Shown piece by piece: positions 8,712-34,327 of a stretch of 64,000 bases of DNA. This stretch comes from Chryseobacterium sp. 6424 (lineage in GTDB: Bacteria > Bacteroidota > Bacteroidia > Flavobacteriales > Weeksellaceae), in NCBI RefSeq assembly GCF_003692615.1, contig NZ_CP023540.1, forward strand, positions 1,116,001 to 1,180,000, written 5' to 3'. The notes under the pieces are model-generated. The model was not told the DNA's origin. It ran no database searches and worked only from the letters and a program-made list of their open reading frames with translations. The position numbers and the translations under genes were made by a program. Numbering within the stretch: position 1 is the first letter of the stretch; every line of letters begins with the position of its first letter.

Positions 8712-9389
8712 ATGTCGATAAAATTTCTGGCTGAGGACGACCGCCCGCGCGAAAAATTTTTACTGAAGGGTAAAAATGCACTGTCTGATGCCGAACTTTT
8801 AGCCATCATCATGGGAAGTGGCAGCCGTAATGAGTCTGCTGTGGAACTTGCACGCCGTATCCTTTCTTCAGCGGATAACAGCTGGCACCAGCTGTCTTTA
8901 CTTACCATTGCAGAACTCACTAAGTTCAAAGGTGTTGGCGAGGCAAAAGCTATTTCTATCGCCACCGCACTCGAGATCGGCCGCCGGAAATCCTCGCAGG
9001 ACGTTCCCGAGAAATTACAAATCAGCAGCAGTGCCGATGCTTTCAAGATACTGCATCCGTTTCTGTCAGATTTAAGGACTGAGGAGTTTTGGGCGGTTTT
9101 CCTGAATCATAATAACCGGATCATTACCAAATCAAGGCTTTCATCAGGCGGCATTAACCAATCCGTGGTAGATGTGCGTATCCTGTTTAGATCTGCGCTG
9201 GAGCATTGTGCCACCGGCATCATCGTAGCGCATAACCATCCGTCCGGTAATCAAAAGCCAAGCCCCGAGGACCTGAGGATCACCAAACAAATCAGCGAAG
9301 GCGCAAAACTGCTGAACATTCAGCTGCTCGATCATCTGATCATTACCCAGAACAGTTATCTTAGTTTTGCAGACGAAAATTTGCTATGA
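8712..9389 (+). CDS. radC: RadC family protein (JAB/MPN domain)
   Basis: A 225-residue RadC-family protein. The N-terminal helix-hairpin-helix part holds LSDAELLAIIMGSG and LTKFKGVGEAKA. The C-terminal JAB domain keeps the metal-binding signature HNHPSGNQKPSPED at about residues 174-187. RadC was historically called a DNA repair protein, but its real role is unsettled. The gene begins 5 bases after the lolD-like stop and overlaps the next gene by 4 bases (ATGA), so the three are probably co-transcribed. Confidence 0.93.
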   Translation: MSIKFLAEDDRPREKFLLKGKNALSDAELLAIIMGSGSRNESAVELARRILSSADNSWHQLSLLTIAELTKFKGVGEAKAISIATALEIGRRKSSQDVPEKLQISSSADAFKILHPFLSDLRTEEFWAVFLNHNNRIITKSRLSSGGINQSVVDVRILFRSALEHCATGIIVAHNHPSGNQKPSPEDLRITKQISEGAKLLNIQLLDHLIITQNSYLSFADENLL

Positions 9390-10278
9390 TTAAAAGACTG
9401 AAATACCCAGAAATCGACTTTAATAAATATTCCGCCTGTATAGAAAGCGCTGCGCAATACAAATATACCGCGGAAAGAAGCTTTCTGGATATCGTATCAG
9501 GCAACAATTGGGAGCTGCTGGTGTATAAAGATTACGAGGCCGTGATGCCCGTACCATATATATTTAAATTCGGTTTAAGGTTCGTCCTGAACCCCAACCT
9601 CTGCCAGCAACTTGGCATTTTCTCTAAGAAAGATATGGTTGGACTGAATGAAGAATTTCTGGCTTTTTTCAGGCAGAATTACAGGATCTGGTATTATGCT
9701 TTTAATGATAGCAATGGTTTTCGATCTCCACTTCCTACCCGAAAAATTTTTTGATGTTTCCGGAGGTTTACGAGAAGGTTTACCACAACTATTCCCCGAA
9801 AAGGAAACGCAAACTCCGGATAGATGAAAATGTACGCTCGCGTCTGCGTATCGACAAATACATGGATTTGGGTCTGGCGATCCCGTTCATTAATGATCAT
9901 ATGGCAGGCGCTGGGAATAAGAAAGACCTGAAAAGCTTCATTGGCAAGTTCACCCGTTTCTATCAGGTCGGGGATCTTCGATTCTATGGTTTCTTTCATG
10001 ATGGGCAACTCATAAACCTGTTGGCACTGCATATCAGCAAGTCCACTGTGGCGTTACTCGGCACCTTCAATGACCGCAAATTCCTGAAACTGAATGGTGC
10101 GTCCATACTGATAGATCATGCGATAAAAGATTATATTGAGACACATGTATTTGATTTTGAGGGTAGTGAGGTGCCGGCGGTCGAAGAATTTTTCCGTGGT
10201 TTCCGTCCCCAGTTGGCATCTTATCCTTACATCCTGCACTCGCGCAAAGATTTACTCCTCAACCTACTCGGAAAGTAG
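9386..10278 (+). pseudogene. FemAB/GNAT-like hypothetical protein, frameshifted
   Basis: Two abutting reading frames appear to be one gene. The first (from ATG 9386, MIKRLKYPEIDFNKY, 122 residues) ends at a TGA at 9752-9754. The second continues in the -1 frame as LMFPEVYEKVYHNYSPKRKRKLR to 10278. One additional A in the A5T6 run at 9742-9752 would join them as ...TRKNFLMFPEVYEKV..., giving about 297 residues. The C-terminal part (FYGFFHDGQLINLLALH, then FDFEGSEVPAVEEFFRGF) resembles GNAT/FemAB-fold acyltransferases of Bacteroidetes, by recollection of the pattern only. It overlaps radC by 4 bases. The lesion could be a homopolymer sequencing error or real. Confidence 0.6.
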
Positions 10279-10314
10279 CAAATAATTAGTAATTTTGCCT
10301 CCTTATTTCCGGAC

Positions 10315-10824
10315 ATGATCGACTGGCCTTATTTTCCGTATTTGTTTGCTCTGCTGCTGGCGGTGCCTTTTCTTATTTACCTTAGGCAGTTCGTGTACAG
10401 TTACATCAGGCTGAAGAATAAGGAGATTCAGCTGTTGACCGTCAAGGGAAATTCCGGCCATCGCCTGCAGGCGTATGAGCGGCTCACACTTTTTCTGGAA
10501 CGCCTGAAACCCAGCCATCTGGTCACCAAATTCGACAGAAACCTGCAGCCGCACGAATTTTTGTTTTTAGCAGAGAAAACCATCACCGAAGAGTTTGATT
10601 ATAATGCTTCGCAGCAGTTATACCTTACTAAAAACAGTTGGAAAGCGGTACTGAAGGCAAAAAATACCGTCCTTAATCTGCTGCATGCCACGTATGATAA
10701 ATTAGGCAAAGAGGCAAATCTTGAAGAGTTTAAAACGGTTTTCCTGATGAATTATATCGAAGGGGAAGATGTAGTGGCACAAACCATTGAGGAACTGAGA
10801 AAAGAAAATTTAATTATAAACTAA
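10315..10824 (+). CDS. Membrane-anchored hypothetical protein (DUF7935-like)
   Basis: A 169-residue protein with one N-terminal membrane helix (about residues 6-27, FPYLFALLLAVPFLIYL) and a basic, helical cytoplasmic part. It resembles a small family common in flavobacteria, which I believe is DUF7935; no function is assigned. The gene lies 10 bases upstream of inorganic pyrophosphatase in the same direction, so the two are likely co-transcribed. The start codon is the first ATG after the previous gene and places the helix at the N-terminus. Confidence 0.65.
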   Translation: MIDWPYFPYLFALLLAVPFLIYLRQFVYSYIRLKNKEIQLLTVKGNSGHRLQAYERLTLFLERLKPSHLVTKFDRNLQPHEFLFLAEKTITEEFDYNASQQLYLTKNSWKAVLKAKNTVLNLLHATYDKLGKEANLEEFKTVFLMNYIEGEDVVAQTIEELRKENLIIN

Positions 10825-10833
10825 AAATAATAA

Positions 10834-11445
10834 ATGATACCAAATTTTAAAGCACACCCATGGCATGGTATTTCGGCCGGACCGGAAGTACCCACTGTTG
10901 TGAATGTTTTCGTAGAAATTGTTCCCAGTGATACCATTAAATATGAAATTGATAAACAAAGCGGTTACCTGAAGGTAGATCGCCCACAGCAATTTTCAAA
11001 TATCATTCCGGCGCTTTACGGTTTTATACCGCGTACCTACTGTCATGATGAAGTGCTTAAACTGGCCATTGAAAGCGGTGCGCCAGATGTGAATACGGGT
11101 GACCTCGACCCGCTGGATATCTGTGTGCTCAGTTCGCACAACATCCATGCAGGAGGCATGCTGATGGAGGCGATCCCAATCGGTGGCTTCAAAATGATTG
11201 ATAAGGGAGAGGCGGATGATAAGATCGTAGCCGTGATGAAGGGTGACCATGCATTCGGGCATTTCCGCGATATTACCGAACTTCCACAGGCAGAGGTAAA
11301 AAGACTGATGCATTACTTCCTTACCTATAAAAACCTGCCGGATGAGCCTGCAAAATGCCGCATCCATGAAGTATATGGTGCCGAGCATGCCCAAAACGTG
11401 ATCCGGGCTTCGCAGAAAGATTATGCTAACAAATTTGGGGGATAA
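10834..11445 (+). CDS. ppa: Inorganic pyrophosphatase (family I, soluble)
   Basis: A 203-residue cytosolic enzyme that hydrolyses pyrophosphate to two phosphates and so drives biosynthetic reactions. The family I metal-binding signature DLDPLD is at about residues 90-95, and the N-terminal region (HPWHGISAGPEVP, then VNVFVEIVPSDTIKYEID) is typical. It is followed by a terminator and, 136 bases later, by a membrane pyrophosphatase, so two different pyrophosphate-consuming enzymes are neighbours. Confidence 0.95.
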   Translation: MIPNFKAHPWHGISAGPEVPTVVNVFVEIVPSDTIKYEIDKQSGYLKVDRPQQFSNIIPALYGFIPRTYCHDEVLKLAIESGAPDVNTGDLDPLDICVLSSHNIHAGGMLMEAIPIGGFKMIDKGEADDKIVAVMKGDHAFGHFRDITELPQAEVKRLMHYFLTYKNLPDEPAKCRIHEVYGAEHAQNVIRASQKDYANKFGG

Positions 11446-11470
11446 ACCACCACCTGAATAACTGATAAAA

Positions 11471-11498
11471 GACAGATGCCCAGCGTCTGTCTTTTTTG
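11471..11498 (+). terminator. Intrinsic terminator after ppa
   Basis: Stem GACAGATGC (11471-11479) pairs with GCGTCTGTC (11483-11491) including one G-T pair. The loop is CCA, followed by a T6 run. Confidence 0.85.
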
Positions 11499-11580
11499 TT
11501 TTATACCGCTAAGTTTAAAATAAAATACGTATTTTCGAGTGTGTTATTATCAAAGGCACTAACATTAAAAGTTATAAACT

Positions 11581-14316
11581 ATGGATTTATTTATTTTAGT
11601 ACCGCTCTTCGGTATTATTGCGTTGGTCTACACCTTCCTGCAGAGCAGTTGGGTAAGTAAGCAAAATGCCGGTAACGACCGGATGAAGGAAATCAGTGGG
11701 CACATTGCCGACGGCGCCATGGCTTTCCTGAAAGCAGAATACAAAATCATGGCGTATTTTGTAGTCATTGTAGCCGTTTTACTCGCACTTATGGGTGCCT
11801 CCAATTCCAATTCACACTGGACGATTGGTATCGCATTCGTCATCGGTGCCGTTTTGTCGGCCCTAGCAGGCTTTATCGGGATGCGCATCGCCACCAAAGC
11901 CAATGTGCGTACTGCCGAAGCTGCCAAAACTTCCTTATCGAAAGCCCTCAAAGTATCCTTTACCGGAGGTTCAGTGATGGGGATGGGGGTGGCCGGACTT
12001 GCTGTACTCGGGCTTGGTGCGCTGTATCTCATTATCAAACAGATCTTTGCGCCAGATGCGGGGGTGGACAGCCATGAGATGGAACGTACCATTGAAATTC
12101 TTACCGGGTTCTCCCTGGGTGCGGAGTCTATCGCGCTCTTCGCCAGGGTAGGCGGAGGTATCTATACCAAAGCCGCGGACGTAGGTGCCGACCTTGTAGG
12201 AAAGGTTGAAGCCGGTATCCCGGAAGATGATCCGCGAAACCCAGCTACCATTGCAGATAACGTAGGTGATAACGTAGGCGATGTAGCCGGTATGGGTGCC
12301 GATTTATTTGGTTCCTATGTTGCGACGGTATTGGCCACGATGGTATTGGGCCGCGAGACTTTCTCGGAAGATGCTTTCGGAGGGTACGCACCGATATTAT
12401 TACCGATGCTGATCGCAGGTACTGGGATTATCTTCTCCATGATCGGCGCGTTGTTCGTAAAGATCAGCGAGACTACTGAACTTGACACCGCTCCGGTACA
12501 AAATGCCCTGAATTTAGGGAACTGGGGAAGTATCGTACTGACAGCGGTTTCATCTTATTTCCTGGTAAATTATCTGTTACCGGCTACCATGTCCTTACGT
12601 GGCCATGAATTTACGAAGATGGGCGTATTTGGTGCCATCATCGTAGGATTGGTCGTAGGAACATTGATGAGCATCATTACCGAATATTATACGGCCATGG
12701 GCAAACGCCCGGTGAAGAGTATCGTTAAGCAGTCCTCCACCGGCCATGCCACCAACATCATCGGCGGGCTTTCTGTGGGGATGGAATCTACCTTACTGCC
12801 GATCATTGTATTGGCGGGTGGTATTTACGGTTCTTACCTATGTGCCGGGCTTTACGGTGTGGCGATTGCAGCGGCGGGTATGATGGCAACCACGGCCATG
12901 CAGCTTGCGATTGACGCGTTCGGGCCGATTGCCGATAACGCAGGTGGTATCGCCGAGATGAGCGAACTGCCAAAAGAAGTTCGTGAAAAGACCGACATCC
13001 TGGATGCTGTAGGGAATACCACAGCGGCAACGGGCAAAGGATTTGCGATTGCTTCCGCAGCCTTGACGGCGCTGGCATTGTTTGCCGCTTTTGTAGGCAT
13101 TGCAGGCATTGATGGCATTGACATCTACCGCGCCGATGTATTGGCCGGACTTTTTGTAGGCGCTATGATTCCTTTTATCTTCTCGTCACTTGCGATTACC
13201 GCTGTTGGCCAGGCAGCGATGGCCATGGTAGAGGAAGTGCGCCGCCAGTTCCGCGAAATCCCCGGCATCCTTGAGGGTAAAGCTACCCCGGAATATGAGA
13301 AATGTGTAGCCATTTCTACGGATGCTTCCATCAGGAAAATGTTATTGCCCGGTGCCATCGCACTTATTTCGCCGCTATTGGTAGGCTTCATTTTCGGGCC
13401 AGAGGTGCTGGGTGGCTTCTTGGCAGGTGCTACCGTTTCCGGTGTACTTATGGGCATGTTCCAGAACAACGCCGGTGGCGCATGGGATAATGCCAAGAAG
13501 TCTTTCGAGAAAGGTGTTGATATCAACGGGCAAACGTTCTACAAAGGATCAGATCCGCACAAAGCTTCTGTGACTGGGGATACCGTTGGAGATCCTTTTA
13601 AGGACACTTCCGGTCCGTCGATGAATATCTTAATTAAGCTGATGTCGATTGTATCACTCGTGATCGCGCCTACTTTAGCGGTACTTCATAAAGACCAGAT
13701 CGAAAAGAACCGTCAAGATAAATTCGAAGCTATGTCCGAAAGAATAGGGCTTGCTGGTGTTTCCGCTGAACCGGGAATGAACGCCGGTACTACGGTAGCT
13801 GCGCAGGAAGTACGCGGGGCACTGAATGCGGACGGTGATTTTGTATATGAAACCGGTGAAGTACAAGAGGTGAAGATGGGCCGAAAATCTGTATTGATGG
13901 GTAAAAACAGTCAGGTATATGCCTTGTATAACGGTGTGAAACTGAAAGACCAGCTGTTGCTGGACCCAAATTTGTGGTACACCATTGAGAACCTGCACTT
14001 CCAGAGTGGCAGCAGCGACCTGAAGCCGGGTGCTGAAAAAGAACTGAACAATCTGGCAGAAATCATGAATGAATATCCAGACCTGAAGATCAAACTCGGG
14101 GGATATACCGATGATACAGGTAATGCCGATACGAATATGAAACTCTCCAACCTGCGTGCGCAGACCGCCAAACTGAAGCTGCTTGAAATGGGCATCGCGT
14201 CTGACCGTATCGAAACAGAAGGCTACGGCCCGCTGTTCCCGGTTTGCGAGGGTAACGACACGGATGAGTGTAAAGCCAGAAACCGCAGAATTGATATAAG
14301 AGTCATAAGTTTCTAG
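11581..14316 (+). CDS. hppA: Membrane ion-translocating pyrophosphatase fused to a C-terminal OmpA-like domain
   Basis: A 911-residue protein. Residues 1 to about 700 form a membrane pyrophosphatase with about 16 helices that pumps H+ and/or Na+ using pyrophosphate. The catalytic segment [11 protein letters not shown] (about 200-210) and the following [21 protein letters not shown] are intact. [10 protein letters not shown] (near 477) has Ala where K+-independent enzymes have Lys, so this should be a K+-dependent type. After a linker of about 90 residues, residues 800-911 form an OmpA/MotB-type peptidoglycan-binding domain with GGYTDDTG and KLSNLRAQ. Membrane pyrophosphatase C-termini face outward, so the OmpA domain would be periplasmic. 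Ion specificity is not resolved. Confidence 0.93.
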
Positions 14317-24780: not shown

Positions 24781-27594
24781 ATGGCATTCAACCAAAACCC
24801 CGAACAGAAAGCCCGAGATTTGATCGACGAGATGCTGCGCCTGGCCGGCTGGCACGTACAATCTAAAAGCAATATCGATTTCAGTGTAGGATTGGGTGTG
24901 GCCGTGCGGGAATATCAAACAAGTGTAGGTCCTGCTGATTATGTACTATTCGTGAATCAGAAACCGTTGGGGCTAATTGAAGCCAAAAAGGAAGATGAAG
25001 GACACCGATTAACAACCGTGGAAGAGCAGTCTTCCGGATATGCCAATGCCGACCTGAAATTCTTCAAGAATACAGATGGATTAAAGTACATCTACGAAAG
25101 CACGGGCGTTGTTACCCGCTTTACCGATTATACCGACCCTAAACCCCGTGGCAGAAATGTTTTCAGCTTCCATAAGCCGGAAACCTTATTGGAATGGAGG
25201 AAAAGAGAAAAAAGTCTGCGAGGCAGATTTGCAGATTATCCGGTACTGGATGAAACAGGTTTGCGTCCGGCGCAGATTACTGCAATTAATAATTTAGAAA
25301 AATCATTTAAAGGCAACCGGCCAAAAGCCTTGATACAGATGGCGACGGGCGCGGGTAAAACCTTTACTGCCGCTACATTCATTTACCGATTACTGAAATT
25401 TGCAAAGGCTAAACGCATTCTGTTTTTAGTCGATACCAAGAACTTAGGTGAGCAGGCAGAACAGGAATTCAGAGCCTATCAACCGCAGGACGATAACCGT
25501 AAGTTTACCGAATTATACAACGTGCAGCGATTGACTTCAAGTTATATCGCCGATGAAAGTCAGGTTTGTATTTCTACCATTCAGCGGATGTATTCTATTT
25601 TGCAGGGCGAGGAAATGGATGAGGAGGAAGATGTAGTCAATCCCAATGAAAATTCAGGCTGGATAGAAAAACAGTTGGCAAAAAAAGAGGCCGTTCCGGT
25701 AGCATACAATCCAAAAGTGCCTATCGAGCAGTTTGATTTTATTATTATTGACGAATGCCACCGTTCTATTTATAACCTTTGGAAACAGGTGTTGGATTAT
25801 TACGATGCGTTTCTAGTTGGCTTAACCGCAACACCTGATAAAAGAACTTTTGGTTTCTTTAATGAAAATGTAGTGAGCCAATATACTTACGAAGAATCGG
25901 TTATCGATGGTGTGAACGTTCCTTATGATGTGTATTTAATTGAAACCGATATTTCCACAAAAGGCGCTTTAATAGAAAAAGGTTGGTTTGTAGATAGAAG
26001 AGATAAACTGTCGAGAGCCAAACGCTGGCAACAGGAAGATGAAGACACCGCTTATCTGCGCAACGATTTAGATAAAAAAGTAGTCAACATCAGCCAAATC
26101 AGAACGATTATTACGGCTTACAAAGACGCTTTGAGAAAAGACATTTTTCCCAATCGTTTTGATGAAAATGGTGAATATGAAGTGCCTAAAACTTTAGTCT
26201 TTGCCAAAACCGACAGCCACGCCGATGACATTATCAATATCATCAGAGAAGTATTTGAAGAAGGCAATGATTTCTGTAAAAAGGTAACCTATAAAATAGA
26301 AGAAGACCCAAAATCGGTGCTGAACCGTTTTAGAAATGACTATTATCCGCGTATTGCCGTTACGGTAGATATGATTGCAACCGGAACCGATGTGAAACCT
26401 TTGGAGGTATTGCTGTTTATGCGGGATGTAAGAAGCATCAATTATTTTGAACAAATGAAAGGACGTGGAACGCGTACCATTTCTGCCGATAAATTAAAAC
26501 TGGTAAGCAAAACTGCCGATGCTAAAACACACTTCGTGATTGTAGATGCAGTGGGTGCCACCAAATCTAAAAAGACAGACAGCCGTCCGCTGGAACGGCA
26601 GCCAACTATTCCTTTAAAAGATTTGTTGCAAGCCGTTACGATGGGCGTGCAGGAAGAAGATGTGTATCTTTCTTTGGCTAACCGACTCATCCGTTTGGAA
26701 AAGCAGCTGACCGATGCAGAGAAAGAGAAAATACAGGAACTGGCAAAAGGCAAAAGCTTAAAGCAGATGACCCGCGAACTGATTGAGGCATTTGATGCGG
26801 ATGTGATTGCCGATAAAGCAAATGCCATTATTGCACAAATTCCCGTACAGGACCGAACGCCTGCAAAAGAAGAACAAGCCAAAGCCCAAGCGCAGGAAGC
26901 TTTGTTGAAAACAGCATCCTTAACTTTTAACGGCAAACTGAATGAGCATATTGACAATGTGCGCAAACAGCATGAACAGATTATCGACCATATCAATCTG
27001 GATGAAGTAACCAAAGCAGAATGGGACACGGAATCGGTGGACAAAGCCAAAGCCTTGATTAACGATTTCAGCGAGTACCTGAAAGCCAATAAAGACGAGA
27101 TACAGGCGCTGAGTATTTTCTACGACCAGCCTTACAACCGCCGCAACATTACTTTTAAAATGATAAAAGAAGTAATGGATAAACTGAAACTGGAAAAACC
27201 ACTGTTGGCTCCTGCTCACGTTTGGAGTGCTTATGCGGGTATAGAAGAAGTAAAAAGCGATTGCCCGAAAGATGAACTGACGGCATTGGTTTCTTTGATT
27301 AGGAAAGTGTGTGGCATAGATGAAGAACTGAAGCCTTTTGATAAAACCATTGACGAGAATTTTAAGCGTTGGATTTTTGCACAAAATGCCGGACAGCACA
27401 ACCGCTTTAGCACCGAGCAAATGGAATGGTTGAGAATGATAAAAGACCACATTATAAGTTCGTACCATATTGAGCTGGATGATTTAGATTATAACCCGTT
27501 TGACAGCAAAGGCGGAAGAGGAAAGATGTACCAATTGTTTGGTAACGAAATGGATAGTATTATTAATGAATTAAATGAAGCATTAGCTGCATAA
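24781..27594 (+). CDS. hsdR: Type I restriction enzyme R subunit, EcoEI-like
   Basis: A 937-residue motor and nuclease subunit of a type I restriction-modification complex. The N-terminal nuclease domain shows the PD-(D/E)xK pattern in GPADYVLFVNQKPLGLIEAKK (Asp near residue 60, EAK near 74). The SF2 helicase motor has Walker A MATGAGKT (about 187) and DECH box IIIDECHRS (about 321), with motif VI-like MKGRGTRT later. The C-terminal part fits the EcoEI-type R domain that contacts the modification subunits. The frame is intact. First gene of the defence operon; its stop is 13 bases before a 52-residue membrane peptide gene. Confidence 0.95.
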   Translation: MAFNQNPEQKARDLIDEMLRLAGWHVQSKSNIDFSVGLGVAVREYQTSVGPADYVLFVNQKPLGLIEAKKEDEGHRLTTVEEQSSGYANADLKFFKNTDGLKYIYESTGVVTRFTDYTDPKPRGRNVFSFHKPETLLEWRKREKSLRGRFADYPVLDETGLRPAQITAINNLEKSFKGNRPKALIQMATGAGKTFTAATFIYRLLKFAKAKRILFLVDTKNLGEQAEQEFRAYQPQDDNRKFTELYNVQRLTSSYIADESQVCISTIQRMYSILQGEEMDEEEDVVNPNENSGWIEKQLAKKEAVPVAYNPKVPIEQFDFIIIDECHRSIYNLWKQVLDYYDAFLVGLTATPDKRTFGFFNENVVSQYTYEESVIDGVNVPYDVYLIETDISTKGALIEKGWFVDRRDKLSRAKRWQQEDEDTAYLRNDLDKKVVNISQIRTIITAYKDALRKDIFPNRFDENGEYEVPKTLVFAKTDSHADDIINIIREVFEEGNDFCKKVTYKIEEDPKSVLNRFRNDYYPRIAVTVDMIATGTDVKPLEVLLFMRDVRSINYFEQMKGRGTRTISADKLKLVSKTADAKTHFVIVDAVGATKSKKTDSRPLERQPTIPLKDLLQAVTMGVQEEDVYLSLANRLIRLEKQLTDAEKEKIQELAKGKSLKQMTRELIEAFDADVIADKANAIIAQIPVQDRTPAKEEQAKAQAQEALLKTASLTFNGKLNEHIDNVRKQHEQIIDHINLDEVTKAEWDTESVDKAKALINDFSEYLKANKDEIQALSIFYDQPYNRRNITFKMIKEVMDKLKLEKPLLAPAHVWSAYAGIEEVKSDCPKDELTALVSLIRKVCGIDEELKPFDKTIDENFKRWIFAQNAGQHNRFSTEQMEWLRMIKDHIISSYHIELDDLDYNPFDSKGGRGKMYQLFGNEMDSIINELNEALAA

Positions 27595-27607: not shown

Positions 27608-27766
27608 ATGACAACACAAGAAATTATAAGCGCAATTATTGGAGCAATAGTAGGGGCAGGTATATCTATCCCAATTACATTAAAGATTTCAAAATCCAAT
27701 TCTAATAACGTAACTCAAAGTAATATTAAAAGTAATGGAGATGTTGTGGGTCGAGATAAAAAATGA
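27608..27766 (+). CDS. 52-residue single-pass membrane peptide with GDVVGRDK tail
   Basis: ATG 27608 opens a 52-codon frame starting MTTQEIISAIIGAIVGAG. Residues 6-27 form one hydrophobic helix, followed by a polar Ser/Asn-rich stretch and a C-terminal GDVVGRDKK. The stop TGA overlaps the next gene's ATG (ATGA, 27763-27766), a classic coupling. The tail motif recurs in the next protein as GDVVAGNK. The GDVVGRDK-type motif occurs, as far as I recall, in ABC-three-component and other conflict-system proteins. I infer that this is the membrane-acting or anchoring part of the ABC-3C cassette. No family assignment can be made from sequence alone. Confidence 0.7.
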   Translation: MTTQEIISAIIGAIVGAGISIPITLKISKSNSNNVTQSNIKSNGDVVGRDKK

Positions 27767-28344
27767 TTTCTATGGATTTAAGTAGAATAAATCAGGAACA
27801 TATAGAAGCAGGAGGAGATGTAGTTGCAGGCAATAAATATGATCACAGTGTTAATGTAAACAATGTGCTAAATCCTGCTACGGATTATATGCTGGAATTA
27901 GTTAAAAAATTTAAAGATGAAGCACTTACTAATAATAAGTTTAATGATATAGTAGACAACTTAAATCATTACAGCACAAATTTAGATGAAGATACTGTTT
28001 ATGATTTAGAGTATAAACTGAAAGCAGGTAATCGTGATTTTGAATATAAAAGAGCAGCATTACTAAAAGAAAGAATAGCAAAGAAAATTAAACTTAATGA
28101 AAATAGTGAAGCAGCTCAAGAAATTTATGCCTATCTATTGTCTCAAGTTTGCTCAGATTTCAATATGCACGTGTATCCGTTGATAAAGACTTCTTCTATA
28201 ATGCAAATCAATTTATTACTTGATGAAAGGGTTATAAAGCCTGCTCAAGGAATTTTAGGAGTGAATGTATTAAGACTTCTTAAAGACGATATTAATGGAA
28301 TGATATATTTTTTAACAGGTAATTGTCACATAAAATGGGAGTAG
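27763..28344 (+). CDS. ABC-three-component (ABC-3C) system protein, C-terminal-domain type
   Basis: A 193-residue protein. The start region holds HIEAGGDVVAGNKYD, sharing a motif with the preceding peptide. The remainder is helical and ends NGMIYFLTGNCHIKWE. That ending (GMLYFLTGNCHL/I-RW in relatives I recall) marks the C-terminal domain of ABC-3C system proteins, which normally carries an effector domain at its N-terminus. Here there is no room for a nuclease or protease domain, so the effector may be the separate membrane peptide upstream. ATG 27763 overlaps the upstream stop; ATG 27772 is an alternative start. The next gene begins 4 bases after the stop. Confidence 0.78.
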   Translation: MISMDLSRINQEHIEAGGDVVAGNKYDHSVNVNNVLNPATDYMLELVKKFKDEALTNNKFNDIVDNLNHYSTNLDEDTVYDLEYKLKAGNRDFEYKRAALLKERIAKKIKLNENSEAAQEIYAYLLSQVCSDFNMHVYPLIKTSSIMQINLLLDERVIKPAQGILGVNVLRLLKDDINGMIYFLTGNCHIKWE

Positions 28345-28348
28345 AATT

Positions 28349-28852
28349 ATGCTAATTTACAATCCAGCTTACGATATCTATCATACAATGTATAGAATAA
28401 TTTTGTTGAGTTCTCGAATTGCAAAAACAATAGAAATAGACAAATTGAAAATTCTTGATTTCTACTATGTATATCCTACAGAATTGTTAGATATCAAAAA
28501 GCCAGTTGGTTTTAAAAAATATGAAAAATTTTTAAAGCGTGAAAAAAATAAATATGATAGGATAAATAATCCTAAAAGAATATTTTATAAAATGAACAGC
28601 ATACAATTTCAGGCGATGAAAATTTTGGTAGCATATGGTTATTTAGATTCGGAAAGTTTTGAAAACGGAATTGTAAAAGTTACCGAAAAATCTTTTGGAG
28701 AGGAATTTCAAATTATGGTAGAGAAATCAGTGGAATTGAATACGAACTTGATTACTTTGTTAGCTGGACCGATAGCAGATATTGATTTATATGGACATCT
28801 TGGCTTAAAAGAAAGAACAGGATTAATTGAATTTAGATATGACACAATATAA
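28349..28852 (+). CDS. ABC-3C system middle component
   Basis: A 167-residue protein beginning MLIYNPAYDIYHTMYRIILL, a start I associate with ABC-3C middle components (possibly the MC5 type; the subtype is a guess). These proteins are thought to link the ATPase with the effector-bearing component. The sequence is helical, with a likely winged-helix-like middle (SIQFQAMKILVAYGYLDSESFENGIVKVTE). It has no membrane segment and no catalytic motif. It begins 4 bases after the preceding gene and overlaps the ATPase start by 14 bases. Base composition is strongly AT-rich like its neighbours and unlike hsdR. Confidence 0.72.
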   Translation: MLIYNPAYDIYHTMYRIILLSSRIAKTIEIDKLKILDFYYVYPTELLDIKKPVGFKKYEKFLKREKNKYDRINNPKRIFYKMNSIQFQAMKILVAYGYLDSESFENGIVKVTEKSFGEEFQIMVEKSVELNTNLITLLAGPIADIDLYGHLGLKERTGLIEFRYDTI

Positions 28853-30746
28853 CCCCTTTTTAAAGTTAAATAGATTAATAATATTTTCTCACGAAGGAAA
28901 GATTGCTTACGATCAGAATTTTCATAGTGGGGTAAATATTATAAGAGGACACAATAGCTCAGGGAAATCTACAATAGCAAACTTCATTTTTTATATACTT
29001 GGAGGAGACTTCAATAAATGGACTTCACAAGCTCTTAAGTGTAAAGATATTATTGCTGAAGTTGAAATAAACGATGCAAAAATCACATTGAAAAGAACTG
29101 TTTCCGAAAAAGCAATGCAACCAATGTCCGTATTTTGGGGAAGCTACGAAGATTCAAAAAAAGCTGGTAGTGAAAATTGGGAGATATTTCCATATAAAAG
29201 ATCAGAACACAAAAAAAGTTTCTCTAACGCTTTGTTTTTAGCTTTAGGATTTCCGGAATTAAGGGGAGATGTTGATAGTAATATTACGATGCACCAAATT
29301 CTCAGATTGATATATATAGATCAAAAAAGTTCTACACAGGATTTAATGATGTCTGATAACTTTGATTCCTCTATAACAAGAACAACTGTAGCAGATTTGT
29401 TATTTGGTGTTTATGATGATACTTTATATACTGATAAATTAGAATTAAGAGAGAGCGAAAAGGAACAGGAGATATTTAAAAAGCAGTTTGAAGGAATAGA
29501 ATCAATTTACAAATCGACTGGTGCAGAAACAAAAATCGAAACAATAGATGCCCTTATTAGAGAAAATCTAGAACAATTGAAGAAAATTGATGAGGCATTA
29601 GCAGGTGGCGATGATATAAGCAATTCTGATATCGATGATGAAACTGAAGAAATTATTAAAAAGTTAAATGATTCGCTTTTGCTACATAAAAGAGAATTTA
29701 CAGATACATTAAAAGAAATTGAGTATTATGAATATGAAATTTTAGATTCGAATGAATTTATTGATAGTTTAACTAAACGAAGCTTATCAATTAACGAATC
29801 TTTAGTTACCAAAGAACTTTTCGGTAATATAGATTTCACCCATTGCCCTCATTGTTTAAGTGAGTTAACAACTTCCCAACCAGATCATAGCTGTAGTTTA
29901 TGTAAGCAAGTTTTACCAGAAGAACAAATAAAATCTCATCACAAAAAGATGCAACAAGAGATAGACAATCAAATAAGGGAGTCTAAAATGTTGCTTAAAG
30001 ATAAACTATTAAAATTACAAGAGTTCAAATCACTAATTCCATCTCTAAGTAATGAGATTAAAACTACTCAAAGTGAAATAGAGTCTTTATTAAATAGGTT
30101 TCAAACAAGAAGAAACAAAGGTTACGATTCTTTACTAATTAAAAAAGGAGAAATGACTTCCAAAAATAATTTTCTCATACAGCAACAAAAAGCTATATCA
30201 AGAATTGATGTTTTAAGAAAAGAATTAAAAAGATTAGATGCTAAAATTAGAGATTTACGAGCCTCAATAATAGCAAAAGAAAAAGATAAAAACACAAAAT
30301 TATTTAATGCTCGTTATTTTATTCAAACCAAAACTTTAGAAATATTAAAAAGTGATCTAGGAAGGCAAAAGGAATTTGCAAATGCCAAAATAGTTGAACT
30401 AGACTTCTCAAAAAATACGTTTTTATTAGATGGGCAAAACAATTTTTCTGAGAGTTCGAATGTATATCTGAAAAACAGTATTCGATTTGCAATATTTTTT
30501 GCGTCTTTACAATTTGCGTTTTTTAGATTTCCCAGATTCATTTTATGTGACAATATCGAAGATAAAGGAATGCAGCCTGATAGAAGTAAAAGTTTTCAAA
30601 GAAAAATAGTTGAGCTTTCTAATAGTTCAAATGTCGAACATCAAATTATTTTAACTACTTCAATGGTAGATGAAGATTTAAACGGCACGGAACTTTGCGT
30701 TGGGGAATTTTATGATGAAAACAACAAAACTTTGAAGAATATTTAA
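28839..30746 (+). CDS. Rad50/SMC-like ABC ATPase of the ABC-3C system, with zinc hook
   Basis: A 635-residue ATPase. Walker A GHNSSGKST lies at about residues 37-45. A long coiled coil in the middle carries two CxxC pairs (CPHC near 336 and CSLC near 352), which would form a zinc-hook-like dimer contact. The C-terminal nucleotide half has Walker B FILCDNIEDKGM (about 566) and a Thr-Thr-Ser switch (ILTTSMV). A standard LSGG signature is absent; LKNSIRFAIFFA stands in its place. I chose ATG 28839 (MTQYNPFLKL) over a TTG upstream. The stop overlaps the hsdS start by one base, tying the ABC-3C genes to the restriction operon. Confidence 0.85.
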   Translation: MTQYNPFLKLNRLIIFSHEGKIAYDQNFHSGVNIIRGHNSSGKSTIANFIFYILGGDFNKWTSQALKCKDIIAEVEINDAKITLKRTVSEKAMQPMSVFWGSYEDSKKAGSENWEIFPYKRSEHKKSFSNALFLALGFPELRGDVDSNITMHQILRLIYIDQKSSTQDLMMSDNFDSSITRTTVADLLFGVYDDTLYTDKLELRESEKEQEIFKKQFEGIESIYKSTGAETKIETIDALIRENLEQLKKIDEALAGGDDISNSDIDDETEEIIKKLNDSLLLHKREFTDTLKEIEYYEYEILDSNEFIDSLTKRSLSINESLVTKELFGNIDFTHCPHCLSELTTSQPDHSCSLCKQVLPEEQIKSHHKKMQQEIDNQIRESKMLLKDKLLKLQEFKSLIPSLSNEIKTTQSEIESLLNRFQTRRNKGYDSLLIKKGEMTSKNNFLIQQQKAISRIDVLRKELKRLDAKIRDLRASIIAKEKDKNTKLFNARYFIQTKTLEILKSDLGRQKEFANAKIVELDFSKNTFLLDGQNNFSESSNVYLKNSIRFAIFFASLQFAFFRFPRFILCDNIEDKGMQPDRSKSFQRKIVELSNSSNVEHQIILTTSMVDEDLNGTELCVGEFYDENNKTLKNI

Positions 30747-32086
30747 TGAATAACTGGAAACAAAAAACACTCAACGATGTCTGTGATAAAATTTCTTTAA
30801 ATAAAATTAAAATAAAACAAAAGGAATATTTATTTGAAGGAAAATATCCAGTTATTGACCAAGGACAAGAATTAATTGGTGGATATTTTGATAATCAAGA
30901 TTTACTCGTTCCAAATGAACCACCATATATTGTTTTTGGAGATCACACAAAAGTCAAAAAATTTATTCCATTTCGGTTTATAGCAGGTGCAGATGGTGTT
31001 AAAGTTTTAAAAGCAAAGAGTAATATTTTACCGAAATTCCTATATTATCTTTTACATACAATAAAAATTGAGAATAAGGGTTATGCTCGACATTTTCAAT
31101 TATTAGAAAAAGAAACATTTTTAATTCCTGAAGATATTCCCGAACAACGAGCCATTGTTAAAAAATTAGAAAGTTTATTCAGCAGTTTAGATGCCGGAGT
31201 AGCCGATCTAAAAAAAGCACAACAGCAATTAAAAATTTACCGACAAGCGGTTTTGAAAAAGGCTTTTGAGGGGGAAGTGAAGAAGAAAGGAAAAGATAAT
31301 TTCATTGAAACTAAAATTAATGATATATCTGCAAACCTTAGCAATGATATGAAAATTGTTAAGCTAGGTTCTCTCATTACATTACAAGGAGGTTATGCAT
31401 TTAAAAGCCAAGAATTTCAAAATGAAGGTATTCCTGTAGTTAAAATTGCTAATGTCAATCTTGATAATATAAATTGGGATGACACTTCATATATTGATGA
31501 AGGTAGAGTAAATGAATTTAAATCATATGCTTTAAAAGAAGGAGATGTACTAATTGCGATGACAAGGCCAGTTATAAAGTCTTTAAATAGTGTTAAAACG
31601 GTTATTGTTAGGAAAGCTGATTTACCTTGTTTCTTAAATCAGCGTGTTGGTCGTTTTTTGATAAAGAATGGTTCAGTTCTCAAAGAATACTTGCAATATT
31701 TTATTAAAAGTACATTTTTTAAAGACCCTATAGTAAGACAAGCAAATGATTCTTTGCTTCCGAATATAAGTGGGAAAATAATAGAGAGTTTTGATTTTCT
31801 AATTCCTGATAGTATTGATCAACAAAAACAAATCGTCAAACAAATTGAATCCCGTTTATCCGTTTGTGATTCCATAGAACAAAACATCAAAGAAAGTTTA
31901 GAAAAAGCAGAAGCCTTACGCCAAAGCATTCTTAAAAAAGCATTTGAAGGAAACTTGTTAACTGCACAGGAATTGGCAGCATGTAAACTGGCTCACGATT
32001 ATGAACCTGCAAATGTATTGTTAGAGCGAATAAAAGTGGAGCAGAACAAAACAACGGCTAAACCCAATAAAAAAACACCGCATTAA
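30746..32086 (+). CDS. hsdS: Type I restriction enzyme specificity subunit S
   Basis: A 446-residue DNA-recognition subunit. It has two target recognition domains (about residues 1-140 and 195-365), each followed by a conserved helical spacer: PEQRAIVKKLESLFSSLDAG ... VLKKAFEGE, and DQQKQIVKQIESRLS ... ILKKAFEGN. The near-repeat of the spacers is the family's hallmark. The start ATG shares its A with the ATPase stop codon (TAATG), so translation is coupled. The AT-rich composition matches the ABC-3C genes rather than hsdR and hsdM, as if hsdS and ABC-3C were acquired or exchanged together. The DNA target cannot be deduced. Confidence 0.93.
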   Translation: MNNWKQKTLNDVCDKISLNKIKIKQKEYLFEGKYPVIDQGQELIGGYFDNQDLLVPNEPPYIVFGDHTKVKKFIPFRFIAGADGVKVLKAKSNILPKFLYYLLHTIKIENKGYARHFQLLEKETFLIPEDIPEQRAIVKKLESLFSSLDAGVADLKKAQQQLKIYRQAVLKKAFEGEVKKKGKDNFIETKINDISANLSNDMKIVKLGSLITLQGGYAFKSQEFQNEGIPVVKIANVNLDNINWDDTSYIDEGRVNEFKSYALKEGDVLIAMTRPVIKSLNSVKTVIVRKADLPCFLNQRVGRFLIKNGSVLKEYLQYFIKSTFFKDPIVRQANDSLLPNISGKIIESFDFLIPDSIDQQKQIVKQIESRLSVCDSIEQNIKESLEKAEALRQSILKKAFEGNLLTAQELAACKLAHDYEPANVLLERIKVEQNKTTAKPNKKTPH

Positions 32087-32190
32087 AAACCGCCACAGCG
32101 TGGCAAAATATGAATAGCTCCGTAGGAGCGGAATATTAATAGCACATCATGGCGGAATATGAATAGCTCCGTAGGAGCGAAATATTAATC
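32087..32190 (+). repeat. REP-like palindromes, left cluster
   Basis: A run of short palindromes separated by AATATGAAT / AATATTAAT: GCCACAGCGTGGC (about 32092-32104), GCTCCGTAGGAGC (32117-32129), a degenerate copy around CATCATGGCG, and GCTCCGTAGGAGC again (32166-32178). Orientation is opposite to the right cluster. This is the pattern expected for substrates of the REP-associated transposase that follows. Confidence 0.82.
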
Positions 32191-32204: not shown

Positions 32205-32663
32205 ATGGCAAACACCTACACCCAATTATATTTTCATATTGTTTTTGCCGTGAAAGGCCGAAGCAATTATATTTCCGAACAATGGAAAGACGAATTGTAT
32301 AAATACATTGCGGGCATTATTGCCAATAAAAACCAAAAACTAATGATTGTGAATGGAGTGCCGAACCATATTCATTTATTAATAGGCACGAAACCCAATT
32401 GTAATTTATCAGATTTAATTCGCGATATAAAAGCCAATTCATCTAAATGGATCAATGAGAAAAAATGGACCAACATTCATTTTGAGTGGCAAACCGGTTT
32501 TGGCGCATTTACCGTTAGCCAATCGGGTGTACCCAAGGTGATTGAATACATAAAAAATCAAGAAGAGCATCATCGGAAAAAAACCTTTAAAGAAGAATAC
32601 ATTGAATTTTTAAAAGCATATCAGATCGATTTTAAAGATGAATATTTGTTTGATGAAGATTGA
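32205..32663 (+). CDS. tnpA: REP-associated tyrosine transposase (Y1 HUH, IS200/TnpA-like)
   Basis: A 152-residue single-strand transposase. The HUH motif is in GVPNHIHLLIG (about residues 50-60), and the catalytic tyrosine is probable in VIEYIKNQEEHH (about 115). The length and MANTYTQLYFHIVFAVKGR start match IS200/IS605-like TnpA and the domesticated RAYT branch. Palindromic REP units flank it on both sides in inverted orientation, which favours the RAYT reading over a free-standing insertion sequence. There is no TnpB. It sits between hsdS and hsdM, in the same direction as both. Confidence 0.9.
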   Translation: MANTYTQLYFHIVFAVKGRSNYISEQWKDELYKYIAGIIANKNQKLMIVNGVPNHIHLLIGTKPNCNLSDLIRDIKANSSKWINEKKWTNIHFEWQTGFGAFTVSQSGVPKVIEYIKNQEEHHRKKTFKEEYIEFLKAYQIDFKDEYLFDED

Positions 32664-32682: not shown

Positions 32683-32781
32683 ATTAATATTTCGCTCCTA
32701 CGGAGCTATTGATATTTCGCTCCGCTGGAGCTCTATGGTGCTTAAAAATAATGCTTTAATAATATTTCGCTCCTACGGAGC
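32683..32781 (-). repeat. REP-like palindromes, right cluster (inverted)
   Basis: Three palindromes GCTCCTACGGAGC (32694-32706), GCTCCGCTGGAGC (32719-32731) and GCTCCTACGGAGC (32769-32781), each preceded by AATATTTC or GATATTTC. They are the reverse complement of the left cluster units. The last one ends 17 bases before the hsdM start codon and may shape hsdM expression. Confidence 0.83.
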
Positions 32782-32798
32782 TGTACATAAAAAATAAA

Positions 32799-34327
32799 AT
32801 GACAGAATCAGCAATTGTATCAAAAATATGGAATCTGGCCAATGTAATGCGCCACGACGGAGTTGGTTATGGTGATTATCTTGAACAGATAACGTACTTA
32901 CTGTTCCTTAAATGGTAGATGAACTTAACAAACCACCTTATAACAGAAACTTAAAATTACCCAGACTTAAAGATGTAGATGGCAATGAAGTGGAAGGCGC
33001 AGAGGTTTGCTCTTGGGAGAATTTAGTCTCAAAAAACGGAGCAGAACTGGAGTCGTTTTACATTCAGGCATTGCGTTCATTGGGTACGGAAAAAGGAATG
33101 CTGGGGCAGATTTATGTAAAAAGTCAGAACAAAATACAAGACCCGGCCAACCTGCAGCGCATTATTACGATGATCGCCAAAGAAGACTGGAGCATGATGG
33201 GTGCCGATGTAAAAGGAACCATCTACGAAGGACTACTGGAAAAGAACGCGGAAGATACCAAATCGGGAGCGGGTCAATATTTTACACCCAGAGCATTAAT
33301 CAGAACCATGGTTGCCTGTGTACAGCCAAAGCCTATGAAAACGGTAATGGACCCGGCTTGCGGTTCGGGCGGTTTCTTTCTGGCAGCGTATGACTGGCTG
33401 ACCGAAAACAATAAATTAGACAAAGACGAAAAGATGTTCCTGAAGAACAGTACTTTTCACGGTAATGAGATTGTAGCCAGCACCCGAAGGATGTGTCTGA
33501 TGAACCTTTACCTGCACGGTATCGGAGAGATAGATGCTGAACCTTTGGTAAAATCAAATGACGCATTGATAGCAGCTGAAAGTCAGACCTATGATTATGT
33601 CTTGGCCAATCCGCCTTTTGGCAAGAAAAGCGGCATGACCGTGACCAACGAAGACGGTGATATTGAAAAAGAAGACATCAGTTATAACCGTCAGGATTTC
33701 TGGGAAACCACCAGCAACAAACAGCTGAACTTTTTACAGCATATTAAATCCCTGTTGAAGATTGATGGTGAAGCGGCAGTCGTTTTACCGGACAATGTTT
33801 TGTTTGAAGGTGGTGCCGGAGAGGAAATCAGGAAGCAGTTATTAAAGACCACTGAACTACATACTATTTTACGTTTGCCCACCGGAATATTTTATGCCAA
33901 TGGGGTAAAAGCGAACGTACTGTTTTTCAATAACAAACCGGCAAGTAAGGACCCGTGGACGAAAGAAGTCTGGTTTTACGATTACCGAACCAACGTTCAC
34001 CACACACTGAAGAAAAAACCGCTGACGGAAGCCGATTTAGAAGACTTTGTAAAATGTTATCATCCCGAAAACATCTACAAACGCAAAGAAACCTGGAGTG
34101 AGGAGAATCCTGACGGACGCTGGAGAAAATATACTTACGATGAAATCATCGTAAGAGATAAAACCAGCTTGGATATCTTTTGGGTAAAAGACCAAAGCTT
34201 AACAGATTTGGATAACCTGCCAGACCCGGATGTTCTGGCTCTGGAGATCATTGATAATATAGAAGCGGGATTGGCGAGTTTTCGGGAGATTGTGAGCGAG
34301 CTGGAGAAGGGTGAAGAAATTAAATAA
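32799..34327 (+). pseudogene. hsdM: Type I restriction enzyme M subunit (adenine methyltransferase), frameshifted near the start
   Basis: The gene starts at ATG 32799 (MTESAIVSKIWNLANVMRHDG ... YLLFLKW) but meets a TAG at 32916-32918. The family sequence continues one frame away from 32912 as MVDELNKPPYNRN. One extra A in the AAA at 32910-32912 would restore LLFLKMVDELNKPP. The downstream frame (471 residues) keeps SAM motif I DPACGSGGFF and catalytic NPPFG, so a shortened protein lacking about 38 N-terminal residues could start at ATG 32912. HsdM methylates adenine and is needed for both modification and restriction. A sequencing error is possible. Confidence 0.85.

Follow-up and report, generated by a model that had tools for sequence, protein, structure and literature searches.

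The present analysis concerns a four-gene cassette at positions 27608 to 30746 of a 64,000-nucleotide stretch of the Chryseobacterium sp. 6424 genome (NZ_CP023540.1, positions 1,116,001 to 1,180,000; this whole stretch is referred to below as the window), where it lies between hsdR and hsdS of a type I restriction-modification (RM) operon. The first gene encodes a 52 amino acid (aa) membrane peptide with a single helix (P0002; 27608..27766, + strand), here proposed as part of a split effector, and the second a 193 aa LmuA-like docking protein (P0003; 27763..28344, + strand) of the CTD9 family of ABC-three-component (ABC-3C) systems, with the C-terminus GMIYFLTGNCHIKWE. The tail of the peptide, with the motif NVTQSNIKSNGDVVGRDKK, repeats a motif found at the predicted disordered N-terminus of the CTD9 protein (approximately residues 7-25), the helical docking domain of which spans approximately residues 77-193. 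Across CTD9 loci these motifs agree within each pair and vary jointly from lineage to lineage. An earlier note on this DNA had spotted the peptide and missed the match between its tail and the N-terminus of its neighbour, which is the stronger finding.

Prevalence was estimated from genome scans, in which CTD9 was present in one of 60 relatives and six of 395 genomes of the phylum (window genome included in both counts); from the species-level collection the best 80 of 101 relatives were taken. CTD9 was also found in 11 plasmid records and eight viral contigs, while no match was obtained among 50,697 phage records. A total of 95 loci were read, and the middle component family MC5 and the ATPase were each present in 91 of these, which argues that the association of the cassette genes is not due to chance. 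Excluding four duplicates and four loci with a frameshift or contig edge left 87 usable loci, comprising 80 with a small gene upstream of CTD9 (77 recognised by a fixed hydrophobicity rule and three less hydrophobic ones by eye) and seven with a longer fused protein. An identical CTD9 locus is carried by two metagenome-assembled genomes (MAGs), one assigned to the Eubacteriales (L023) and one to Paludibacter (L024), probably because one of the two was misbinned.

Representative pairs of tail and partner start include ...VGGDMAGRDINK and ...VEGDLAGNDINK (L017), QTAGDNSSQYQSGGNMTINK and QTAGNNSSQYQAGGDMTVNN (L023), NNGNIEKQVNIGNITGNI and NNGNIERQVNTTGNVYF (L080), AQSGNVAGGHIAGGNVTT and VQSGNSAGGHIAGGNVST (L073), and FNGPYAGRDI and FFGPYAGRDL (L063). 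Based on tail-partner local alignment scores of 58 non-redundant pairs (CTD9 core identity <80%), the mean score with the own partner was 61.1 versus 32.3 with permuted partners (standard deviation 1.42, highest 38.5), with none of 20,000 permutations as high. For 25 of the 58 tails the own partner scored highest, and for 44 it was among the five best. Aligning the tails to partner residues 61-110 as a control gave no excess (17.1 versus 17.4), and tail and N-terminus likeness remained correlated once CTD9 core identity was accounted for (partial correlation 0.518, against a highest value of 0.188 in 2,000 permutations). Tail shuffling was passed by 74 of 77 pairs (≤3 of 300 shuffles as high), the three that did not beat their shuffles being L059, L070 and L092; L059 was tested in the wrong frame and left so, and a fitting frame exists. 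The window's own pair scored 40, with 6 of 5,000 shuffles as high, and all eight loci later taken from viral contigs passed, each outscoring all of its 1,000 shuffles, two of these (L120 and L116) having tails identical to those of L065 and L046 and hence not being independent. Matched residues used the same codon in 43.1% of cases compared to 41.6% expected from codon usage, so the likeness appears to have been kept at the protein level; a recent DNA duplication as the source of the motif copies is unsupported by this degree of codon sharing. Hand-written motif classes were drawn up after viewing the data, and the alignment test was relied on instead; by these classes 64 of the 77 pairs belonged to the same named class, two were 'other' on both sides and 11 on one side, and none of the 77 combined two different named classes. 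Five tails were flagged as carrying two motif copies, of which three were accepted (L006, L036 and L053).

The loci are related, so that the permutation figures overstate the count of independent events, and the membrane part aligned to the partner start also gave a small excess (19.8 versus 17.1, 0 of 5,000 permutations as high), indicating that this control is not fully clean. Pairs from distant loci showed clear specificity, which was weaker among closely related loci: where core identity was 50-80%, the cognate partner won 68% of the comparisons. Motif groups were clustered on a 45-row ATPase tree, with seven changes, the minimum for eight groups; the tree labels drew on the hand classes plus one more class made by hand and a single unclassified row, and show clustering only. 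The number of independent events is nearer to this handful of class changes, together with finer covariation within classes.

Loci without a fused N-terminal domain have a small gene directly upstream of CTD9, usually encoding a strongly hydrophobic stretch. Its products differ in kind, from short one-helix proteins (52-64 aa in many loci, with a single hydrophobic stretch) to longer hydrophobic ones and a 115 aa helical-looking one. Seven of the 87 loci encode a fusion of CTD9 with a longer N-terminal part and lack a motif-bearing peptide upstream. Pfam assignments were obtained for three of the seven fused proteins, one being serine esterase-like (L012) and one giving a weak HNH match (L031), while no effector domain was found in the third (L078). 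The replacement of motif and peptide by an N-terminal part that is in part enzyme-like suggests an effector role for the peptide. Another sizeable gene precedes the fused CTD9 in L031 (405 aa), L078 (357 aa) and L088 (353 aa), and may belong to the effector. The 113-118 aa upstream proteins of L080, L089, L077 and L092 are ones that we take to resemble BELL, unlike the single helix of the window's peptide; Pfam returned no match for L089 and only a chance-level match for L092. A further genome of the order (L123, reverse complement 9204-12971; also L104) encodes adjacent BELL-like 131 aa and 1123 aa proteins with the motifs ITGNVNTGGGNFINGDNNN and INGTIETNGGDVVNGNNN, matched by eye, and this pair adjoins a gene on the other strand that reads like hsdM. 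The 131 aa protein is weakly similar to the L089 effector (E 3.7e-4, 35% identity), which suggests that this kind of effector may also serve a receptor outside ABC-3C.

The remaining cassette genes encode a 167 aa LmuC-like middle component (P0004, MC5; 28349..28852, + strand) and an LmuB-like Rad50/SMC ATPase with a zinc hook (P0005; 28839..30746, + strand), the latter being 635 aa from the ATG at 28839, which is likely to be its start, or 639 aa from the TTG at 28827. The earlier note had assigned these genes to ABC-3C and called for a search against profile models, which matched CTD9 (PF20285, E 1.9e-32) for the CTD protein, MC5 (PF20291, E 2.3e-46) for the middle component and AAA_23 (E 2.9e-10) for the ATPase, while the peptide had no Pfam or NCBIfam family above the cut-off and no PADLOC family. 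PADLOC identified the ATPase as LmuB of Lamassu (E 5.9e-43) and the middle component as a weak LmuC match (E 1.7e-4), with no match for the CTD protein. A profile of the ATPase matched Rad50 and LmuB (9ux7, E 8.9e-4) in the PDB, and the zinc-hook cysteines C340, C343, C356 and C359 are invariant in all 45 aligned ATPases, in keeping with the Rad50-like ATPase and hook read from the sequence at the outset. The five best structure matches to the predicted CTD9 fold were all LmuA chains, aligned to LmuA residues 247-376, and LmuC chains topped the match list of the predicted MC5 fold; Foldseek with the CTD9 model did not match LmuA. Comparison of the P0003, P0004 and P0005 sequences with PDB sequences, and of the MC5 and CTD9 profiles with the PDB, gave nothing convincing. 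Because the predicted folds match the LmuA C-terminal domain and LmuC, the modelled structures place the cassette in the ABC-3C/Lamassu superfamily, the earlier note having proposed ABC-3C. It thus contains the SMC/Rad50-like ATPase, the middle component and the LmuA-type C-terminal docking domain, and differs from the canonical one-chain Lamassu in that P0003 consists of a disordered arm and helices in place of an N-terminal enzymatic domain, no effector domain being found in it by Pfam.

All of the genes described in the earlier note between hsdR and hsdS correspond to open reading frames, and the nesting in the operon agrees with the gene order and with the Pfam assignment of the flanks (hsdR, hsdS and N6_Mtase domains). 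The upstream flank is hsdR (937 aa; 24781..27594, + strand) and the downstream flank is hsdS (30746..32086, + strand), which starts on base 30746, the last base of the ATPase stop codon, as had been claimed. The asserted overlapping order holds in part: the peptide and CTD9 genes overlap by four bases and the middle component and ATPase genes also overlap, while gaps of 13 and 4 bases follow hsdR and CTD9, respectively. As no terminator-like site was found on the + strand between hsdR and hsdS, a single transcript across hsdR, the cassette and hsdS is plausible. Further downstream are a Y1 (IS200-like) transposase gene (32205..32663, + strand) and hsdM (32799..34327, + strand), which in the assembly is frameshifted near its start, with a 39-codon head followed by the frame 32912-34327; either the RM system may be dead here or this may be a sequencing error. 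The earlier note does not mention the frameshift. Short palindromes of the GCTCCTACGGAGC type flank the transposase gene on both sides (32100-32180 and 32690-32790), presumably akin to the REP-type elements mobilised by such transposases.

The window genome, a single 2.59-Mb contig, can be compared with a genome of the same genus (G005) in which hsdR is 94% identical, the hsdS start shares the final base of the hsdR stop codon and the cassette is absent, and which has a similar transposase gene at the same place and an intact hsdM. The cassette sits exactly at the corresponding junction, and because this site is empty in G005, the nesting is, judging from gene order, an insertion specific to this lineage, at the point where hsdR and hsdS overlap. 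The cassette and hsdS have a G+C content of 0.27-0.31, against 0.42-0.43 for hsdR and hsdM, from which the two may have arrived together. Two other loci from the genus, for which Pfam was run on genes lacking their first codon, have the orders hsdR-hsdS-405 aa gene-hsdM (L101) and hsdR-HipA-like kinase-292 aa-hsdS-154 aa-hsdM (L102), and the RM operon is therefore a site for extra genes. The neighbourhood search called for by the earlier note was run on the 95 CTD9 loci, and the window's own was the only case between hsdR and hsdS, a count based on tblastn with the window's hsd proteins that could miss distant RM genes and that covered flanks of 1.5 kb in L001-L006 and up to 7-8 kb elsewhere, shorter at contig ends. 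A type I RM system lies nearby on the other strand in L065, and distantly similar methylase and helicase matches were found in L022. The nesting as the mark of a joint RM-ABC machine is unsupported beyond the window genome. Such a position is already known for other defence genes: the available part of PMC11411939 describes TgvAB of Vibrio cholerae and RloF of Campylobacter jejuni between hsdR and hsdS; the window likewise has extra genes at this position in a type I RM operon, with different cargo.

On balance we lean towards the cassette being an ABC-3C/Lamassu abortive-infection system with an effector split over two genes. The gene order, the predicted folds and the pair-matched motifs are the observed part of this model, from which we infer a course running from sensing and release through oligomerisation, cross-beta templating and membrane damage to defence. 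The LmuB-like ATPase and MC5 would sense a foreign DNA structure or DNA ends while keeping the LmuA-like CTD9 protein bound; for Lamassu, the proposed triggers are DNA ends or secondary structures (available part of PMC12904381). On activation, CTD9 would be released and would oligomerise, as reported for LmuA, whose nuclease becomes active once the released protein has assembled into a tetramer (accessible text of PMC12409362, citing preprints). The N-terminal motifs, brought together, would serve as a template for the matching motif at the C-terminus of the membrane peptide, a process resembling that proposed for HET-s, RHIM and bacterial BASS pairs in the part of a review that was available (PMC7889193), and the clustered peptide would damage the membrane and stop the infected cell. 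More tentatively, and as a possibility that we rate somewhat below even, CTD9 ABC-3C systems from several phyla might use an SMC/Rad50-type DNA sensor to kill by seeding small membrane proteins through prion-like templating with many orthogonal motif pairs. If true, this would constitute an amyloid-type immune signal without the need for an NLR.

The matched motif would suit permanent docking as well as triggered templating, and the peptide, at just 52-64 aa with one hydrophobic stretch in many loci, could be only a membrane anchor, its tail and the CTD9 N-terminus forming a permanent small beta-structured joint that holds the complex at the membrane close to entering DNA, with the killing activity located elsewhere. 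However, Pfam, NCBIfam and PADLOC scans revealed no other effector in the cassette, and the seven fused loci carry a longer, in part enzyme-like, N-terminal part in place of motif and peptide; we consider an anchor unlikely, although deserving some weight. The tight linkage and order, in that 80 of 87 loci have the small gene immediately before CTD9, would also fit an antitoxin-like inhibitor of the CTD9 protein for which the matched motif is the inhibitory contact. This is distinctly improbable given that CTD9 is without a recognisable toxic domain by Pfam, that its N-terminus is predicted to be disordered and that the upstream proteins vary in kind.

Restriction and Lamassu might alternatively act as one unit, the ATPase sensing HsdR-made DNA ends or stalled translocation and the nesting being selected, a reading in line with the overlapping genes and with the DNA ends and secondary structures proposed as Lamassu triggers in the available text of PMC12904381. 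With one nested case among 95 loci, an empty site in G005 and an hsdM that is frameshifted in the window assembly, this is improbable, if slightly less so than an inhibitor, and the backup or shared sensing with restriction suggested in the earlier note is unsupported as a general rule, the same-genus relative having the RM operon alone. A decayed or silent insertion without present function is very improbable: the downstream transposase and broken hsdM might point that way, but all four cassette genes are open and the invariant ATPase and zinc-hook residues are kept.

Under the split-effector model, the matched pairs provide dozens of testable candidates across lineages, tied to a sensor of known structure, and suggest a replacement for the enzyme in Lamassu-type systems seemingly without an effector; the shortness of the peptide means that annotation tools may overlook such effectors. 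No paper containing both 'Lamassu' and 'amyloid' was found in a literature search that excluded preprints and many journals, and no statement of the small membrane gene or of the motif match was found under the same coverage, so novelty in print is unproven. The review, in its available part, raises the question whether bacteria use signalling amyloids in NLR-independent pathways (PMC7889193).

In common with Type II Lamassu (LmuACB, DdmABC of Vibrio cholerae), the cassette has an SMC/Rad50-like ATPase and a middle component, and its LmuA-type docking domain has a similar predicted fold. It differs from Type II Lamassu in that the LmuA N-terminal enzyme is absent and a short disordered motif, matching a separate membrane protein, is present instead. 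Families and gene order are shared with ABC-3C systems of CTD9 and MC5 (PF20285, PF20291), to which the motif-matched membrane partner is the feature added by the description of the window cassette. Likeness to BASS systems with BELL effectors and NLR receptors, as set out in the available part of PMC7889193, extends to adjacent genes, the same motif at the effector C-terminus and the receptor N-terminus, as was found here, a membrane-type effector and several motif families. The receptor, in contrast, is here the CTD9 docking part of an SMC-type DNA sensor rather than an NLR, and the motifs of the CTD9 pairs are putative amyloid formers. BASS are described there as coming mainly from filamentous actinobacteria and cyanobacteria, neither of which is named in 80 CTD9 record titles. 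The prion domain of HET-s consists of two pseudo-repeats according to the same available text, to which the two-copy tails of three of our loci may be likened.

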